Made by a program: the position numbers and the translations under genes
The notes under the pieces: model-generated
Told to the model about the DNA's origin: nothing
The model's input: only the letters and a program-made list of their open reading frames with translations
Databases searched by the model: none
IMG/VR virus record: IMGVR_UViG_3300022744_000114
Location: 1-20,258 of that record
Direction: 5' to 3' (one strand)
Origin: a virus
DNA: 20,258 nucleotides
Shown: positions 7,132 to 20,055 of the stretch, piece by piece
Layout: each line of letters starts with the position of its first letter
How positions within the stretch are numbered: the stretch's first letter is position 1

Positions 7132-7317
7132 TCACTTGAAGTTCGCGTAGTCGGCGACCGCCGCCGCTACGTTGAGGGCCAGCCGAAGCCGCTCTCCAGT
7201 CATCGAGTCCATCGCATCGGAGGCGAGTTTTTTCGCGGCCTCCATGAGCGTGAGGTCTGAGTCGCCGATGGTCACTGTTAAATGTCCATTGCCGATTGCT
7301 TTCACGATCTGTTCCAT
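7132..7317 (-). CDS. Hypothetical protein (61 aa)
   Basis: Small soluble protein: an N-terminal amphipathic/beta part (MEQIVKAIGNGHLTVTIGDSDLTLMEAAKKL), then one long Ala-rich helix (RLRLALNVAAAVADYANF). No family was recognised. The ATG at 7317 lacks the strong AGGAG seen at most genes here. Only AAAGTGAG precedes it, in a leader almost identical to the one in front of the gene at 11921-12127. That shared leader supports both the start choice and the reality of this gene. Confidence 0.75.
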   Translation of the reverse strand: MEQIVKAIGNGHLTVTIGDSDLTLMEAAKKLASDAMDSMTGERLRLALNVAAAVADYANFK

Positions 7318-7350
7318 GCTTCACTCACTTTCTGCGGCTGGGCCGCGTTG
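7318..7350 (-). promoter_or_regulatory. Duplicated hairpin leader, copy 1
   Basis: In minus-strand sense, CAACGCGG is followed by a variable loop, then CCGCAGAAAGTGAGTGAAGCATG. Here the stem is GCGGC/GCCGC (7346-7342 with 7338-7334) with loop CCA. Copy 2 at 12128-12159 is identical apart from a one-base deletion and a five-base change confined to the loop region. Retention of the stem with loop change suggests a structured element controlling initiation. Confidence 0.55.
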
Positions 7351-7354
7351 AAAT

Positions 7355-7388
7355 GCCCCGCCGCCACTCACGCGGCGTTCAACGGGGC
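7355..7388. repeat. Nested inverted repeat in a 117-bp gap
   Basis: The inner arms CGCCGC (7359-7364) and GCGGCG (7372-7377) enclose a seven-base loop. The outer arms GCCCC (7355-7359) and GGGGC (7384-7388) lie around them. No T-tract follows on either strand, so an intrinsic terminator is unlikely. It shares the gap 7318-7434 with leader copy 1. The rest of that gap shows nothing recognisable. Confidence 0.4.
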
Positions 7389-7434
7389 GGGTGGTCCCGC
7401 GTAGTCCCCAAGAAACGCGCGGTACCGTCAGTCA

Positions 7435-11920: not shown

Positions 11921-12127
11921 TCAAACAGTCAGTGTCTGGATCGCCACGAGCGAACGAACCTTCACGGCGCGTCTATACCGGCGGCGTTCACGATCAGCCA
12001 CGGCGCACGCTTCGGCAAACGTGCCCGCCACGAACGTGTCGGAATCAAAGACTGGTCCGCCAGCCTCGCCTCGGCCACGTTCAACATATTCGACTTTCCA
12101 GACATTCTTGATTGGTGCCTTCGCCAT
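11921..12127 (-). CDS. Hypothetical protein (68 aa)
   Basis: Small basic protein beginning MAKAPIKNVWKVEYVERGRG, with beta character and then an Ala/Arg-rich helix (FAEACAVADRERRRYRRAVKV). This is the layout of small phage proteins with one beta sheet and one basic helix. No family was recognised. The ATG at 12127 is preceded not by AGGAG but by the AAAGTGAGTGA leader shared with the gene at 7132-7317. A GTG six bases upstream is in frame but lies inside the conserved leader, so it is not chosen. Confidence 0.72.
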   Translation of the reverse strand: MAKAPIKNVWKVEYVERGRGEAGGPVFDSDTFVAGTFAEACAVADRERRRYRRAVKVRSLVAIQTLTV

Positions 12128-12159
12128 GCTCACTCACTTTCTGCGGACGAACCGCGTTG
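12128..12159 (-). promoter_or_regulatory. Duplicated hairpin leader, copy 2
   Basis: In minus-strand sense, CAACGCGG-TTCGT-CCGCAGAAAGTGAGTGA precedes the start codon. The stem is GCGG/CCGC with loop TTCGT. Copy 1 at 7318-7350 keeps stem and flanks but has a different loop. The rest of the gap (to 12229) holds one more inverted repeat, AGGGGC at 12195-12200 with GCCCCT at 12214-12219, and nothing else I can name. Confidence 0.55.
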
Positions 12160-12229: not shown

Positions 12230-12556
12230 TCAGCACCTTGCGGCGGACGGCGTGGAGTGTCCTTCTTCCAAACCCTTCTCAACCTTCGCCACGGCCACGC
12301 CGTAGCGTTCGAGATTCGCCCTCACGTGCTGCACTCCCTCGAACACCGTGCTGTGCCGCTTGCCGATCGCAGCACCGATCTGCGGGAACGACGCGGTAGT
12401 ACGACGACGGGCCACGAACGCGAACACCCGCCTGCAATCGACGATCTCGCGGTGTCGGCTCTTGCTCTGAGCCTCGGCCAGCCTGACCCCATACGCGGCG
12501 AGGCTGATCCTCAGCACGTCGGCGAGTTTTGAGTAGGGGCGCGGGTAGGTGGTCAT
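12230..12556 (-). CDS. Stand-alone DnaA domain IV-like DNA-binding protein (108 aa)
   Basis: The C-terminal domain of DnaA binds the DnaA box through a helix-turn-helix. Here residues 31-80 carry that pattern: SRHREIVDCRRVFAFVARRRT, then SFPQIGAAIGKRHSTVFEGVQHV. This corresponds to the DnaA segment with R-x-x-I-V-x-x-R, the IG-x-x-x-G turn and the signature (R/K)-(D/R)-H-(S/T)-T-V. No AAA+ ATPase domain precedes it, and at 108 residues the protein is complete. ATG 12556 overlaps the methyltransferase stop as ATGA. A phage-specific origin binder or a competitor of host DnaA is plausible. Which one applies cannot be read from the sequence. Confidence 0.82.
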   Translation of the reverse strand: MTTYPRPYSKLADVLRISLAAYGVRLAEAQSKSRHREIVDCRRVFAFVARRRTTASFPQIGAAIGKRHSTVFEGVQHVRANLERYGVAVAKVEKGLEEGHSTPSAARC

Positions 12557-13542
12557 TCCTCAGCCTCTGCCTCGGATTCGTCGTGCTGAAAAAGTTCTGC
12601 CTCGGTCTCGGCATCTGGCTTGTCGGCAAGGGCGAGATTCTTCACGGCCTGCCGGTAGTAGGACTCTTTGAGTTCGATCCCTACAGCCTTGCGGCCCATT
12701 CTGACGGCCATGTATGCTTCGGACCCAACGCCCATGAATGGCGTAAGCACCGCGTCTCCGGGATTCGACCACATGGCAACACACCGCTCTATCACGTCGA
12801 GTTGAAGCGGGTGTACGTGCTTCTCGTCCTGGTCATCCTTCGCCGATCGGTGAGGAAGAACGTGGTCAATGCGGATGTCATCCCACACCGATGAGGCATA
12901 CTGCCTCCAAATCCACTGCGAAAACTTGTTGAGTTTCTGATCTCCCTTCATTCCACGATAGGAAAGCACGTCCATCGGCGGCTTCCGCTCCCCCGCGTAG
13001 TGTTCCATGCCAGTCTCGTGAGTGACCGGCTCGGGATTCTCTCCGCCCTTGCGGAACATCAGCAGGTAGTCGGCATTGGCAATGCTGCACCGAGTCGAGT
13101 CCTCGCAGAACGTCCGATGGTGCAGCGACTTCATCATGGTGCGGTTGCGGACCATGAGCGGTTCTTTCCAGATCGCCCGCCTACCACCGTATACAAAGCC
13201 TCGGCGTTCGTGTTCGAGGATGATCCGGCCCGGAAGGTCGTAGATTGCATCGCACCCGGCGTTGCTGAGCGGGATATCCATGCAATGCACGGCACTGATC
13301 CGACCCGGAAGAGTCAGCCGGTGAATCTCGTCGATGCAGTACCCGTAATGCTCAAAGAACTCTTCCTTGTCGATCGCGTTGCTCATGTCGCGTTCATCGC
13401 TGGAATACTGGTACAGGCCAGCGAACGGGGGAGAGTAGACCGAGAGCCTGATGCACTCGTCGGGTAGTGACCGCATGACCTCAACGCAGTCGGCGTTGTA
13501 GATGGCGTATCCGGCTTCGATGAGTTGTTCCTTCACAGCCAT
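12553..13542 (-). CDS. Beta-class DNA methyltransferase (329 aa)
   Basis: Transfers a methyl group from S-adenosylmethionine to an amino group of A (N6) or C (N4) in DNA. The catalytic motif IV is SPPF (residues 37-40), followed by AGLYQYSSDERDMSN. The SAM-binding motif I, FMGVGSEAYMAVRMGRKAVGIEL, lies after it near 265-290. This order (IV before I) defines the beta class. SPPF fits either base, so the target is unresolved. The end is an acidic Glu/Ala/Asp tail. The start ATG 13542 follows GGAG and lies 10 bases inside the helicase gene. No restriction endonuclease gene is adjacent, so it is either an orphan, perhaps protecting phage DNA, or works with the helicase. Confidence 0.88.
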   Translation of the reverse strand: MAVKEQLIEAGYAIYNADCVEVMRSLPDECIRLSVYSPPFAGLYQYSSDERDMSNAIDKEEFFEHYGYCIDEIHRLTLPGRISAVHCMDIPLSNAGCDAIYDLPGRIILEHERRGFVYGGRRAIWKEPLMVRNRTMMKSLHHRTFCEDSTRCSIANADYLLMFRKGGENPEPVTHETGMEHYAGERKPPMDVLSYRGMKGDQKLNKFSQWIWRQYASSVWDDIRIDHVLPHRSAKDDQDEKHVHPLQLDVIERCVAMWSNPGDAVLTPFMGVGSEAYMAVRMGRKAVGIELKESYYRQAVKNLALADKPDAETEAELFQHDESEAEAEE

Positions 13543-14981
13543 GCGGGCTTCTCCATTGGGTTGACATAGATGTTCTGACGCTCAATACGGGTCGCGTTGT
13601 TCATCTCTCGCACAAGGGCCGTAAACATCGCGTCAGCCTTCGCGGCTTTCCTCCGCATGTTGGCGAGTACGCGTATCTCACCTTCAGTTGAAATCACGTC
13701 CAGTTGAACCGGCTTCTTCTGGCCAAACCTCCAGCACCGGCGGACGCTCTGGTAGTACTGCTCGTAGGAATGCGATGCGAACGTGACAACATGGTTGCAG
13801 TGCTGCCAGTTCAATCCCCACGCTCCTATTTTTGGCTTGATGACGAGAACGCGAAGTTCTCCAGACGCGAACGCCTCGTAGAGTTCGATCTTCCGCTCGT
13901 CCGGCGTGGCCCCGGAAATCTGCTTCGCATCGGGGATGGTTTCCTCAAGCGCGTCTCCCTCGGCGTTCATGTGGCACCACACCACCGCACTCCGCTTGTG
14001 GTTCACCAGTTCAGCAACAAAGTTGCAGCGATCGGTGAGCGTCCTGCGCCGCTCGTCCCGCTCCGCGCCAAGTCCAAACGCTGGCACGTTGAAGAGCATC
14101 CCATCGGGCGGCGTGGTGGTCTTGATAACGTGATCGCGCTCGATGAGTTTCGGAAGGATGAACTTCCCATCCTCAAAGCCGAGATCGGAGGGCATCCGGC
14201 ACGCCTTAGACCATGAGGCTACCCACTTCCAGAACGCGCCTACCGCGTGGTGTTTCAGCCGCCATTGTCCAATCGTCTGCGCGACCCGATAGGCAAGTTT
14301 CTGGTAGTAACTGGCATCGTTCGCTATCCATGACTCGGCCTCATCCTGGTTGCGCTGCTCCGACTTCTGGCCCTTGTCGTCAAGGTATTTGAAGAACCGC
14401 TTGAGCATCTCGGAGTTATTCAACTCTCCCAACGCCTCGGACGATGTACCAAGTTCAACGTAGTCGTTCGGCGCGGCCGTGGCCGTGCAGAGCAATCGGT
14501 ATTGCAGTTTCGACGTGAACCGCGTTACCTGCTTCCGAGTCTCGCCGTCGAACGACTTGAGGATGCTTGATTCGTCGCACACCACGCCCGCGAAGTCGTC
14601 GGGCGAGTAGTGGTGAAGCCGCTCGTAGTTCGTGACGACGATTTTGCCCGTCATCTCGCCAGATACCGACCGCTTGGCCTCGATTCCGAACTTTGCTCCC
14701 TCTCGCTCGGTCTGTTTGGCAACCGCCAGCGGCGTAAGAACCAGCACCCGACCGTTGGTCTTGCGAACCACGTTCTCAGCCCACACTAACTGCATGAATG
14801 TCTTGCCCAAACCACAATCGGCGAAAATCGCTGACCGGCCCTTGCGGATAGCCCACTCAGTCAGGCACCGCTGAAAGTCAATGAGTGTGTCAGGCATCCA
14901 TACCGGCTCAAATCCGGCCATGCCCCCGACCTGTGACTTGCGGTGAATGAACTCCGCGTAGTTCGGTTTCGTCTCGACCAT
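13533..14981 (-). CDS. SNF2-like superfamily 2 DEAD/DEAH helicase (482 aa)
   Basis: ATP-dependent DNA translocase or helicase. Motifs in order from the chosen start: Gln-containing N-terminal segment (IDFQRCLTEWA, 34-44), Walker A ADCGLGKTF (54-62), motif Ia VLVLTPLAVAKQ, Walker B DESS (136-139) in VVCDESSILKSF, motif III-like CTATAAPND (165-173), and C-terminal helicase motif VI YYQSVRRCWRFGQKKPV (about 420-436). The Arg-x-x-Arg-x-Gly-Gln form is of the SNF2 type. The ATG at 14981 follows AGGAG. An upstream in-frame extension to 15044 covers the neighbour's end and is rejected. Overlap with the methyltransferase suggests joint function. Confidence 0.9.
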   Translation of the reverse strand: MVETKPNYAEFIHRKSQVGGMAGFEPVWMPDTLIDFQRCLTEWAIRKGRSAIFADCGLGKTFMQLVWAENVVRKTNGRVLVLTPLAVAKQTEREGAKFGIEAKRSVSGEMTGKIVVTNYERLHHYSPDDFAGVVCDESSILKSFDGETRKQVTRFTSKLQYRLLCTATAAPNDYVELGTSSEALGELNNSEMLKRFFKYLDDKGQKSEQRNQDEAESWIANDASYYQKLAYRVAQTIGQWRLKHHAVGAFWKWVASWSKACRMPSDLGFEDGKFILPKLIERDHVIKTTTPPDGMLFNVPAFGLGAERDERRRTLTDRCNFVAELVNHKRSAVVWCHMNAEGDALEETIPDAKQISGATPDERKIELYEAFASGELRVLVIKPKIGAWGLNWQHCNHVVTFASHSYEQYYQSVRRCWRFGQKKPVQLDVISTEGEIRVLANMRRKAAKADAMFTALVREMNNATRIERQNIYVNPMEKPAWL

Positions 14982-14991
14982 CGCCAATCTC

Positions 14992-15255
14992 CTAAATCCG
15001 CAGCGCCGTTTTCTGTTTGTTGCCCTTGGCCGTGATCGGCTCACGCTTCACGCGGTCGCAGCACAGCCGGAGTTGATCGCCGTCGTCGGTGTTGATGACG
15101 ACCGCCGGATCGCCGGGGCTGGTCACGAACGTGCCGAGCACAACCCCGTGGCGCTTGGCGTCGTCCGATGGCCGCTGGAACCACACGCGGGAACCGATGG
15201 CGAACCGCTCGGAGGGTGGCGTGACCATCGAGGTATCTTTGATTGGTTTGTTCAC
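14992..15255 (-). CDS. SH3-like/KOW-type small protein (87 aa)
   Basis: The GTG at 15255 follows GGAGG and overlaps the upstream stop as GTGA. After a short N-terminal tail the protein shows an all-beta pattern, ERFAIGSRVWFQRPSD..KRHGVVLGTF then DPAVVINTDDGDQLRLC, ending with a basic Lys-rich tail. This looks like an SH3/KOW-type barrel, small domains that often bind nucleic acid or protein. A similar barrel is at 19203-19454. The fold call is by sequence pattern only. Confidence 0.75.
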   Translation of the reverse strand: MNKPIKDTSMVTPPSERFAIGSRVWFQRPSDDAKRHGVVLGTFVTSPGDPAVVINTDDGDQLRLCCDRVKREPITAKGNKQKTALRI

Positions 15256-16160
15256 GCGCCACCTCCCGCCGTTTCGGGTTTGGCTGGCTTAGCCGTCACG
15301 AGCCTTTCCCAAGCCGCCCGGCGCTCATCGGCGGGCATCGAGAGGTAGGACTCAAAGCCCTTGTCCTTGATCGCCTTGTTGAACTTCTTCACGCACGCAG
15401 CCTTGTCGCCGTACCCCCGATCCTGCATCTCGGTCAGCATCGCGTCACGCCAGTCAGTCGCCTCGGTGAACGGGACGGGGCAGGGCTTGATCTCGGGCTT
15501 GGGAGGATCGACGACATCGACGGCGAGCTGCTCGGTCTGCTCGGGCTTGTCATCTTCCAGCAGCGACGCCGCCCGGAGCGTTGACCGCTTGGCCGACGGC
15601 TCGTCGCCAGGTTCGGCCACAACCGGCTCGCCCGCCGCGTTCACCGGAACACCCAACTCCTCGGGCGTGTAGACCGGCCCGCTCAGAACGCCGGGGCAGT
15701 ACCACTTCACGCCGTTGCTCAGGGCGCGGCTGAAATACATGTTGCGGGGGTACGAGCGATACGTCTGTGAACCAGACAGGCCAGCCGCCGTCGCCTCCTT
15801 GACGGTGAACTCCGAAATACCCACCGACTGACCGTTCTCGAAGAACTCCAACCGGCAGCCCTTGTCGTCAAGTTGCAGCACGCGGTAGGCGAACCGGCCT
15901 GACCGCTGGACGCATGACGCGAGGATCGTGGCACCAACCATCACTTTGTCTTTGACGATGTAGATGCCGGTCATTGCGGCGACGGGAGGCACACCCAACT
16001 CGCGGCCAGCGAGAATCTTCACGCCTGCCTGAGCCGCCGATCTGGAATCCTTGAAGAAACCCGACTCGGCGAACATCTTGGACATCGACCCAACGTCCAT
16101 CTCGGGGCCTACGCGGGCGATCGGATTGGCCGACGCTGCCTTGCTTGGAACCATGCTCAT
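15252..16160 (-). CDS. RecT-like single-strand annealing protein (302 aa)
   Basis: RecT-type proteins anneal complementary single strands in phage homologous recombination and act with a RecE-type exonuclease. Residues 29-170 show a family pattern known from phages: FFKDSRSAAQAGVKILAGRELGV, AAMTGIYIVKDKVMVGATILA, LEFFENGQSVGISEFTV, YPRNMYFSRALSNGVKWYCPGV and YTPEELG. The C-terminal 130 residues are a disordered Pro/Glu linker and a helical domain, longer than the core family. The ATG at 16160 follows AGGAG, and the stop of the exonuclease overlaps it as ATGA. The partner gene directly upstream supports the assignment. Members are often annotated only as a recombinase or hypothetical protein. 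Confidence 0.8.
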   Translation of the reverse strand: MSMVPSKAASANPIARVGPEMDVGSMSKMFAESGFFKDSRSAAQAGVKILAGRELGVPPVAAMTGIYIVKDKVMVGATILASCVQRSGRFAYRVLQLDDKGCRLEFFENGQSVGISEFTVKEATAAGLSGSQTYRSYPRNMYFSRALSNGVKWYCPGVLSGPVYTPEELGVPVNAAGEPVVAEPGDEPSAKRSTLRAASLLEDDKPEQTEQLAVDVVDPPKPEIKPCPVPFTEATDWRDAMLTEMQDRGYGDKAACVKKFNKAIKDKGFESYLSMPADERRAAWERLVTAKPAKPETAGGGA

Positions 16161-17026
16161 GCTTCAACTCCTGTTTCGATGTTCTCTTTGCGGAGCCGGA
16201 ACGCGGGCACGCTGATCGGCTCGATCCGGCTCGAATAGCCCGGCCATTTCCCCGTGCGAACGCAGTCGGCGTACAACGCGAGCGCCCGGCGGTACTCGAT
16301 CCGTCCAAGTTCCATCGCCGCTGGTTCGATCTCGTAGACCGCTACGGCCTCTGCGCCGATCTCGCACACCCATTCCTTGTCAACCGCGATGAGAACTACG
16401 CACGGCGGCTCGTGGCCTTCGATAGCGGCGATTCCGTCGGCGTAGAACGCGGCCTGAAAGTGATACCCGTAGTCGTACACGTCACGCTCGAACGCGCCGG
16501 GCGCGGCGTTTCGGGTGGTTTTCAGGTCGATGATCGCGTTGCGGGCCGTCGTCAACTGGTCGAGTCGGGCCTTGCAGAGCGTACCAGTCTCATCGTCGCG
16601 CCAGACCGCCGAGCATTCCCGATCGCCTGCCTTGGCGATGAGTTTCGACGCGGCGGGGTGCGCCATCACGGCTCGCTGGATCGCTCCGAGTGTGGCGTAC
16701 TCGTCGGCGGACATCACAATCTTCCCAGCAGCGGCGGTGTTGAACCGTTCCCATTCCTCCTTGCCCGCCTTGGTGCGCCGGTCGCAGTCCGGGGCCGCGA
16801 CGACTTCAACCGCGAAACGCGACGGCTCGTAGCACGCCAGATGCACGGCTTGGCCGAAGGCAAGGGCCTCGGTCGGCGGCTCGGGATGCTCGCGGAGGTA
16901 CTTCCACTGCGCGGGCGTGAGCGTTCCGAGTTTCTTGAGCGCGGATTGGTTGATGGCTTCGATGCCGTCGTACTGCTCGCGGCTGAGTCCGGGGTGGATT
17001 CCGGGAAGGATGCTGGGGCTGGTCAT
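16157..17026 (-). CDS. RecE-like PD-(D/E)XK exonuclease (289 aa)
   Basis: Resects double-stranded DNA 5' to 3', leaving 3' tails for the RecT-like annealing protein. Conserved residues seen: GQAVH (58-62), a Glu at 137, CKARLDQL with D156, the catalytic IIDLKTT with D167 and K169, and YHFQAAFYADG with Q191 and Y195. This is the RecE/lambda-exonuclease-like order of PD-(D/E)XK motifs. Two ATGs lie six bases apart. The upstream one (17032) has AGGAG just one base away. The second (17026) has it seven bases away and is chosen. The gene is preceded by a structured leader of 171 bp. Confidence 0.87.
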   Translation of the reverse strand: MTSPSILPGIHPGLSREQYDGIEAINQSALKKLGTLTPAQWKYLREHPEPPTEALAFGQAVHLACYEPSRFAVEVVAAPDCDRRTKAGKEEWERFNTAAAGKIVMSADEYATLGAIQRAVMAHPAASKLIAKAGDRECSAVWRDDETGTLCKARLDQLTTARNAIIDLKTTRNAAPGAFERDVYDYGYHFQAAFYADGIAAIEGHEPPCVVLIAVDKEWVCEIGAEAVAVYEIEPAAMELGRIEYRRALALYADCVRTGKWPGYSSRIEPISVPAFRLRKENIETGVEA

Positions 17027-17080
17027 GGTCATTCTCCTGAATCCCGCGATCAGCCCTTCCAGGCTGCCCGCGAGAGAGGG
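17027..17080 (-). promoter_or_regulatory. GGAA-tetraloop leader, copy 1 (upstream of the recE-like gene)
   Basis: In the transcript CAGCCU-GGAA-GGGCUG (17066-17051) forms six pairs including one U-G around a GNRA-type tetraloop. Then follows AUCGCGGGAUUC and the AGGAG ribosome-binding site. Copy 2 lies at 18239-18290. The shared elements are the GGAA loop, GCGGGATTCA and the ribosome-binding site. Confidence 0.5.
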
Positions 17081-18296: not shown

Positions 18297-18710
18297 TCAT
18301 TTCCCACTGGCCTTGGCGATGGCGGCGCGGGCCATTCTCACTGGGCAGTTGTCCGCGCAGTCGTCACGCCCGGACGCTCCGCATCCGCAGTAGCAAACAC
18401 CCTTGTCGGGAGCAGATGCTTCTTCCAAAGCAACGAGCATTTCGCAGGCCTCCAACAGGTCTGGCGCGGCGGCGATGAGGGCTTCGTCATTGGGCCTTGC
18501 GACAATCACCAACTCAATGCCTTTGACGGCAAGAGCCTGTTCCGATGTCATCTTGGCGCAGGGAATCAGCACATGCATGTCCGTTCCGTCAACCGGACTT
18601 TTGGCGGTTCGGCTGCAAATTGTCCGCGGTTCTCGCTTTCGTGGGTCTGGGTCGTCGTGCATCCCGCGATTCCAGTACCACGGTCCCGGCGTGTGTTGTG
18701 CTTTGCTCAT
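18297..18710 (-). CDS. HTPGPW phage protein, Ead/Ea22-like (137 aa)
   Basis: The N-terminus SKAQHTPGPWYWN matches the HTPGPW motif of a large phage family related to Ead/Ea22. The second mark, NDEALIAAAPDLLEACEMLVAL, appears near residues 74-95. The C-terminal part carries a cysteine cluster (CYCGCGASGRDDCADNC, about 107-123), a probable metal site and not typical of the family. The ATG at 18710 overlaps the previous stop as ATGA inside a 19-bp sequence repeated at 20037-20055. Function of the family is not settled. Confidence 0.82.
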   Translation of the reverse strand: MSKAQHTPGPWYWNRGMHDDPDPRKREPRTICSRTAKSPVDGTDMHVLIPCAKMTSEQALAVKGIELVIVARPNDEALIAAAPDLLEACEMLVALEEASAPDKGVCYCGCGASGRDDCADNCPVRMARAAIAKASGK

Positions 18711-18721
18711 GTCAGTTCCCC
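18703..18721. repeat. 19-bp junction repeat, copy 1
   Basis: This sequence covers the end of one gene and the start of the next, and the same 19 bases occur at 20037-20055. The minus-strand reading is GGGGAACTGACATGAGCAA, containing the stop TGA, the start ATG and the codons for Met-Ser-Lys. Confidence 0.8.
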
Positions 18722-19532: not shown

Positions 19533-19715
19533 TTCGATCTCCTTGGCGTACCGCTCCAGCACGATCCGCACCGCGCGGCCGGTGCTGACCGGCAAACCCT
19601 TCTTGGCCGACACGACCTGACGCACGCGGGCGATAACGGCCTCTAGCCGCCGCTTGTCGTCTGCGTCGTCGGGGGTCATCCATACCGCTACGCGGGTGCG
19701 TGGTTTCGCGGTCAC
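19530..19715 (-). CDS. Small protein, possibly ribbon-helix-helix (61 aa)
   Basis: The GTG at 19715 overlaps the upstream stop as GTGA after GGGGG. It begins with a basic strand (TAKPRTRVAVWMTPDD), followed by helices (DKRRLEAVIARVRQVVSA) and STGRAVRIVLERYAKEIE. Strand-helix-helix with Arg/Lys at the strand is the shape of small ribbon-helix-helix DNA-binding proteins, but the order and length are not decisive. If it is a regulator, the nearby repeated motif is a candidate target. That is inference. Confidence 0.65.
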   Translation of the reverse strand: MTAKPRTRVAVWMTPDDADDKRRLEAVIARVRQVVSAKKGLPVSTGRAVRIVLERYAKEIE

Positions 19716-20044
19716 GCTACACCCCCCTTCGCTTTGGCGATGGCCCGATCGCATCTGGCAATCACCTCGATGTTGCCGGACAACCCGGGCATGAGCCGCA
19801 CGATCGCGGCACGATCCTCATACGGCAAGTTGGCGTACCACTGGGATACACCCTCGCACGCGGACAGGAGGTCGGGCATCGCGTTGGCGGAGGTCTTTTC
19901 GATGAAACGGAGAATCGCGGCCTCGGCGGAGTAGGCCAGTGCTTCACCTTGAATACCGATGCGGCGAGGGTTCTTCGCCCACTTCACCAACTTGCGGACG
20001 GGGTTGAGTCCGATGTCTCTCGGGATGTCTTGCTGCTTGCTCAT
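19712..20044 (-). CDS. Hypothetical protein (110 aa)
   Basis: Starts at ATG 20044, one base after the preceding stop (TGA-C-ATG), inside junction repeat copy 2. The N-terminal part is basic (RKLVKWAKNPRRIGIQG), and the remainder is helical with a repeated AEAAILRFIEK/ACEGVSQWYANL pattern. No family was recognised. Confidence 0.75.
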   Translation of the reverse strand: MSKQQDIPRDIGLNPVRKLVKWAKNPRRIGIQGEALAYSAEAAILRFIEKTSANAMPDLLSACEGVSQWYANLPYEDRAAIVRLMPGLSGNIEVIARCDRAIAKAKGGVA

Positions 20045-20055
20045 GTCAGTTCCCC
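20037..20055. repeat. 19-bp junction repeat, copy 2
   Basis: Same 19 bases as 18703-18721, again containing the stop of a cysteine-rich zinc-ribbon gene and the start of the next gene. The encoded starts are Met-Ser-Lys in both. Confidence 0.8.

Follow-up and report, generated by a model that had tools for sequence, protein, structure and literature searches.

A short hairpin flush with an AGAAAG-led Shine-Dalgarno sequence recurs before unrelated genes in unrelated phages

The stretch of DNA analysed here (the window) is a 20,258-base IMG/VR virus record, a fragment and not a complete genome. It contains on its minus strand two small ORFs, one of 61 codons for amino acids (MEQIVKAIGNGH..., 7132..7317, with its ATG at 7315..7317) and one of 68 (MAKAPIKNVWKV..., 11921..12127, with its ATG at 12125..12127). 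The two proteins do not resemble each other. No relatives of either were detectable in IMG/VR and isolate phages; the 68-aa protein weakly matches phrog_38355 (function unknown, E 8e-4). The 68-aa ORF could alternatively start at an in-frame GTG at 12133, but this is less likely than the ATG. The initial annotation claimed that these unrelated genes share a leader before the ATG, and both copies are indeed present on the minus strand, directly before the start codons. In RNA sense, copy 1 (7350..7315) reads CAACGCGG-CCCAG-CCGC-AGAAAGTGAGTGA-AGC-ATG and copy 2 (12159..12125) reads CAACGCGG-TTCGT-CCGC-AGAAAGTGAGTGA-GC-ATG. Each starts with CAAC just 5' of the stem (7347..7350 and 12156..12159, minus strand). 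The hairpin that follows is GCGGC-CCA-GCCGC, with five pairs and a loop of three, in copy 1 (7334..7346, minus strand), and GCGG-UUCGU-CCGC, with four pairs and a loop of five, in copy 2 (12143..12155, minus strand). Both hairpins are flush with the box AGAAAGTGAGTGA (7321..7333 and 12130..12142, minus strand), an extended Shine-Dalgarno (SD) sequence whose first A lies 16 and 15 nt before the ATG, respectively.

The similarity of the two leaders exceeds chance. Their 30-nt blocks are identical at 26 of 30 bases without gaps, the maximum for any ungapped 30-nt pair in the window, whereas the maxima in 60 shuffles were 21-24. The exact shared core, CCGCAGAAAGTGAGTGA (17 nt), is among only four exact direct repeats of at least 17 nt in the window, and a repeat of that length is present in 3% of dinucleotide shuffles of the window. 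All four mismatches of the blocks fall within the 5-nt loop, whose middle C is common to both copies, and a one-base indel 3' of the box leaves three bases to the ATG in copy 1 versus two in copy 2. Thus, the earlier description of the differences as a loop block and a one-base indel, with the GCGG/CCGC stem kept, is accurate. No third copy was found in the 20,258-base window within two mismatches of a 15-mer, and Megablast of the leader region against phages gave no match. When folded on their own, the window leaders do not stand out (z -1.4 and -0.3). The four-pair stem of copy 2 is marginal, and in a 120-nt context the minimum-energy fold of this copy lacks the hairpin.

The gaps that hold the window leaders are unusually long (117 and 102 nt), GC-rich and structured, and the leaders lie 75-90 nt from the upstream stop. 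A further hairpin, GCCGC-GTGAGTG-GCGGC, is located upstream of leader 1 (7347-7434, minus strand), and its loop contains the box's GTGAGTG. Also on the minus strand, 12230-12556 encodes a 108-aa stand-alone phage DnaA_C, the C-terminal DNA-binding domain of DnaA (PF08299, E 5.7e-14), and 12553-17032 is a replication/recombination block with an N6/N4 methylase, an SF2 helicase, a RecT-like annealing protein and an exonuclease VIII-like DUF3799 protein. The SF2 helicase has hundreds of IMG/VR relatives, and its best isolate match is in Synechococcus phage S-H1 (56%).

Further copies were found outside the window. An exact IMG/VR scan with the 17-mer CCGCAGAAAGTGAGTGA, a query that imposed neither position nor the GCGG arm, returned ten stretches, all directly before the start codon of one 107-109-aa family. 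This is a third gene with the same 17-mer, unrelated to both window genes; its leaders keep the stem and have the loop CACAG (AACAG in one record). Looser searches revealed dozens of leaders before diverse genes, and some phages have at least two with different stems. The pattern GCGG-N3-8-CCGC-AGAAAGTGA was found in 67 stretches, and 25 distinct sites whose loop has 5 or more bases lie before an ATG. At these sites the next inner pair, which the pattern did not impose, was Watson-Crick in 16 of 25 (C-G 8, G-C 4, A-T 4; p=4e-5), compared with 5 of 13 sites without a following ATG. Several of the misses carry a longer, outward-shifted stem (GCGGTGGC/GCCACCGC in L224, GCGGGGG/CCCCCGC in L244). 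In one set of orthologous leaders (L322/L390) the loop differs and the stem, box and flanks are kept; in another (L211, L225 and L242) the stem and box are kept and the loop changes. Across leaders, there is free variation in the loop and in both the sequence and the length of the stem. It extends to copies in the same genome (G009, G019 and G006), and no sequence constraint was seen in stems or loops.

The site had initially been described as a cis-regulatory RNA or protein site. The further phage copies, the non-imposed stem pairs and the orthologous leaders bear out the first half of this description, a cis-acting RNA leader that occurs repeatedly, its stem constrained and its loop free. 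The second half finds no support, because conservation is confined to the box that complements rRNA and neither stem nor loop is fixed in sequence. An RNA-binding protein of the phage or its host might nevertheless recognise the hairpin together with AGAAAG and repress or activate translation, as at T4 RegA or coat-protein operators; a hairpin beside the SD is the usual operator layout, and some phages have two or three copies. We regard such an operator as improbable, since the hairpins vary freely even in one genome, the constant part is fully accounted for by 16S complementarity, and very different phages share the leader without any known common regulator. The T4 RegA and gene 32 operators (reviewed in PMC3014915) resemble the leader in having structure beside the SD of phage genes, but the leader has no conserved recognition sequence beyond the SD.

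A common bacterial 16S tail (...CCUCCUUUCU-3') has CUUUCU as its last six bases. AGAAAG complements these exactly, and therefore AGAAAGUGAGUGA is an extended but core-weak SD. In B. subtilis, mature 16S rRNA has the 3' end GAUCACCUCCUUUCU, with a tail ending CCUCCUUUCU, and the optimal distance from the 16S terminus to the start codon is 15-21 nt (PMC5732282). CUUUCU is at or near the 16S end in several other bacteria (PMC6288834). Tails vary, however: that of Synechocystis ends in UUUAAGGG and that of E. coli in UUA (CCUCCUUA tail), as given in both papers. AGAAAGUGAGUGA pairs with most of the B. subtilis-type tail if one U is bulged, and the predicted duplex is -11.0 kcal/mol with the B. subtilis-type tail and -6.6 with the E. 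coli-type tail, although the tail of the window phage's host may differ from these, given that the best isolate match of the window's helicase is in a Synechococcus phage. In 42 of 43 listed leaders the first A of the box precedes the ATG by 13-19 nt (mode 15-16); the single outlier of 10 nt (L242) arises because the upstream ATG of a 3-codon frame was taken as the start. The window spacings of 16 and 15 nt fall within the B. subtilis optimum, as given in PMC5732282. It is thus well supported that the leaders possess an SD, one that is displaced into the 5' half of the sequence complementary to the tail. The initial annotation stated that a strong AGGAG is lacking. AGGAG is truly absent, but to conclude that there is no strong SD would be a misreading, since the box is an extended SD by its predicted duplex with the B. 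subtilis-type tail.

The layout, that is, a short hairpin of free sequence, a zero gap, AGAAAG plus a weak SD core (UGAGUGA in the window) and 13-19 nt to the ATG, occurs repeatedly, in unrelated phages and in front of unrelated genes. A 277-kb phage record has three leaders with different stems, all AGAAAGTGAGGA, and multiple different-stem leaders per genome are also present in G001, G003, G005, G006, G012, G014, G019 and the isolate Butyrivibrio phage Ceridwen, which has two flush leaders. Another isolate, Brevundimonas phage Strzyga, has one leader, before a 519-aa ORF heading a run of structural genes. Leader queries of 37 and 45 nt returned mostly chance matches in BLASTN, yet led to both isolates. 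Most genes behind the leaders encode small proteins without a known function; a connector, a Sak4-like protein, a head protein and a holin-like protein are also encoded there. Some leaders lie at or just past the stop codon of the preceding gene. The leader is rare in motif-unselected relatives: no convincing flush leader was seen in 80 helicase-selected loci (0.71 Mb). In bacterial chromosomes, the strong-box pattern occurred 6 times in 299 Pseudomonadota genomes and 5 times in 199 Bacillota genomes. These numbers are too small to draw an offset profile, and no match was both flush and before an ATG. A pattern check of the 16S tail in Pseudomonadota detected the site in too few genomes to be informative, and a genome scan gave five matches, without an obvious stem. 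A gene-start pattern scan returned many AT-rich ribosome-binding sites (RBS) without hairpins and was excluded from the evidence. No Rfam 15 family matched at gathering score at the leaders, and a literature search found no description of such a leader. The recurring layout with differing hairpins suggests a little-noticed way of starting protein synthesis.

Repeats of this kind could also act at the DNA level, as a hairpin promoter (N4 type) or as a recombination or boundary sequence copied between genes. The two copies in one fragment would fit, as would the tandem duplication of leader and downstream gene, 591 bp apart, in L004 (4506-5113) and L005 (1883-2490). However, every leader is on the coding strand at a tightly constrained distance from the ATG, and the stems show compensatory pairs with unrelated stem sequences. 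There is also no promoter excess: sigma-70 consensus hexamers and stem plus U-run terminators are at chance level, with none at the leaders on the minus strand. We consider a DNA element very improbable.

The gap between hairpin and box was analysed by counting hairpin ends at each offset. In 18 phage records, the hairpin ended at offset 0 in 28 of 155 AGAAAG starts, about half of these 28 being seed sites that had brought the record in, and in 0-6 at each other offset from -2 to 12. After removal of all imposed sites, 541 AGAAAG starts remained in 5.5 Mb of fetched loci; 20 of these had offset 0, compared with an average of about 9 at other positive offsets, although this and the later counts are enriched for motif-bearing phages because most loci were fetched for carrying the motif. 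Non-seed boxes without a GAG, GGG or GAA continuation gave 17 at offset 0 versus about 4 elsewhere. The controls AGGAGG, GGAGG, AAGAAA and AGAAAA had no offset-0 peak in the 5.5 Mb of loci. When the hexamer was left open, AGAAAG ranked first after a flush hairpin (13 seen versus 2.4 expected, p=1.4e-6). Two further viral scans covered strong AGAAAGGAG boxes with two unrelated stems, and stem extension was not stopped at the box. The independent stem GGGC/GCCC gave 14 at offset 0 versus 9, 13, 6, 10 and 6, and both stems pooled gave 33 versus 15, 26, 15, 17 and 13 (p=0.0017), an excess that is only about twofold. The universal form of the rule, in which every AGAAAGGAG start prefers a flush hairpin, was rejected, as the effect is small there. 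Since the excess is clearest without a GGAG core and smaller at strong AGAAAGGAG boxes, the hairpin goes mainly with core-weak boxes.

Stabilising hairpins near the SD are established in Firmicutes, where 5' stabiliser hairpins and STAB-SD elements place a hairpin or an SD-like element near the RBS. The hairpin described here resembles them in this respect and might likewise be an mRNA stabiliser or a processing product beside the SD, which shields the transcript from 5' nucleases and affects translation indirectly. The unusually long gaps in the window and the Strzyga leader at the head of a structural-gene run are consistent with this. Unlike the Firmicutes elements, however, the leaders also occur inside operons, with a zero gap. 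Two of three boxes in L341 lie 14 nt past the preceding stop and one in Ceridwen lies 1 nt past, so the hairpin is not at the primary 5' end in these cases, and a stabiliser needs neither exact zero-gap abutment nor a fixed 13-19 nt to the ATG. Stabilisation is therefore an unlikely explanation. A stop codon directly at the stem base in L003-L012, and stops close upstream in L341, would instead fit an intercistronic insulator, in which the hairpin only blocks pairing of upstream RNA with the SD or reinitiation by terminating ribosomes. This leaves the exact zero gap and the bias to boxes without GGAG unexplained, and the distance of the window leaders from their upstream stops also argues against it; we find an insulator quite doubtful.

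Complementarity to the tail is established to help initiation where the host has that tail. With a host tail ending in CCUCCUUUCU-3', AGAAAG would pair with the last six 16S bases, so the box would anchor the 30S subunit via the 5' half of the extended SD and not via GGAGG. Because the hairpin ends at the base pairing with the 16S terminal nucleotide, the two helices could stack end to end as one nicked helix. The flush C-A step might contribute about 2 kcal/mol (our own estimate, not computed). A stacked hairpin would reinforce a weak SD and shield it from upstream RNA, and in the window the leader would raise or set translation of the two small genes. That the leader is an RNA element with an extended SD is well supported; we infer the stacking, which would jointly account for the free stem and loop sequence, the zero gap, the AGAAAG start and the weak-core bias. 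Taken as a whole, the reading of the leader as a translation-enhancing initiation element with its hairpin stacked on the SD/anti-SD helix seems to us evenly balanced. More tentatively, we propose a phage-enriched class of leaders in which a freely variable hairpin is coaxial with the terminal pair of the SD duplex at the extreme 16S 3' end and thereby enables efficient initiation on core-weak SD sites.

The box resembles known extended SD pairing, in that AGAAAG complements CUUUCU-3' and the start distance fits the B. subtilis optimum. Excerpts of the papers on this pairing (PMC5732282 and PMC6288834) describe no hairpin abutting the duplex, and in contrast to the sites treated there, the GGAGG core is often weak in our leaders. 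Cluster K mycobacteriophages have SAS, a short repeat directly before the starts of unrelated genes with a suspected role in translation, and ESAS, which adds an inverted repeat just upstream with 17-bp imperfect arms and a sequence consensus per subcluster (PMC3203893). Our leaders share with SAS/ESAS a repeat before unrelated gene starts and an inverted repeat upstream. However, the box is AGAAAG-led, unlike the 13-bp SAS GGGATAGGAGCCC (PMC3203893), and the stems are 4-9 bp of free sequence (4-5 bp in the window), unlike the 17-bp consensus arms of ESAS. The 13-bp GGGATAGGAGCCC was not found before starts with at most two deviations; there were only matches with three mismatches, 5 versus 5.9 expected.

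Hairpins close to an SD are generally regarded as obstacles or as sites for regulators. If an abutting hairpin instead completes the SD helix, RBS prediction and design would have to score the base just upstream of the SD. Phages would then possess a translation signal that is specific to the host's 16S tail and can be recognised in the sequence. The role of this variable 3' tail, which the cited tail-mapping work leaves open, could then be tested directly.

Several other elements were observed in these records. A leader-bearing phage contig (L239) has a Type-P5 twister ribozyme at 13013-13071 on the minus strand (Rfam RF02684, 64 bits). In L004 and L007, many consecutive ACGGC[T/A]ACGGC repeats form the end of the gene preceding the leader. 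The window itself has a second start-associated repeat, 19 exact bases GGGGAACTGACATGAGCAA at 18703-18721 and 20037-20055. The copies span the ATGs of two further ORFs, at 18297-18710 and 19712-20044.
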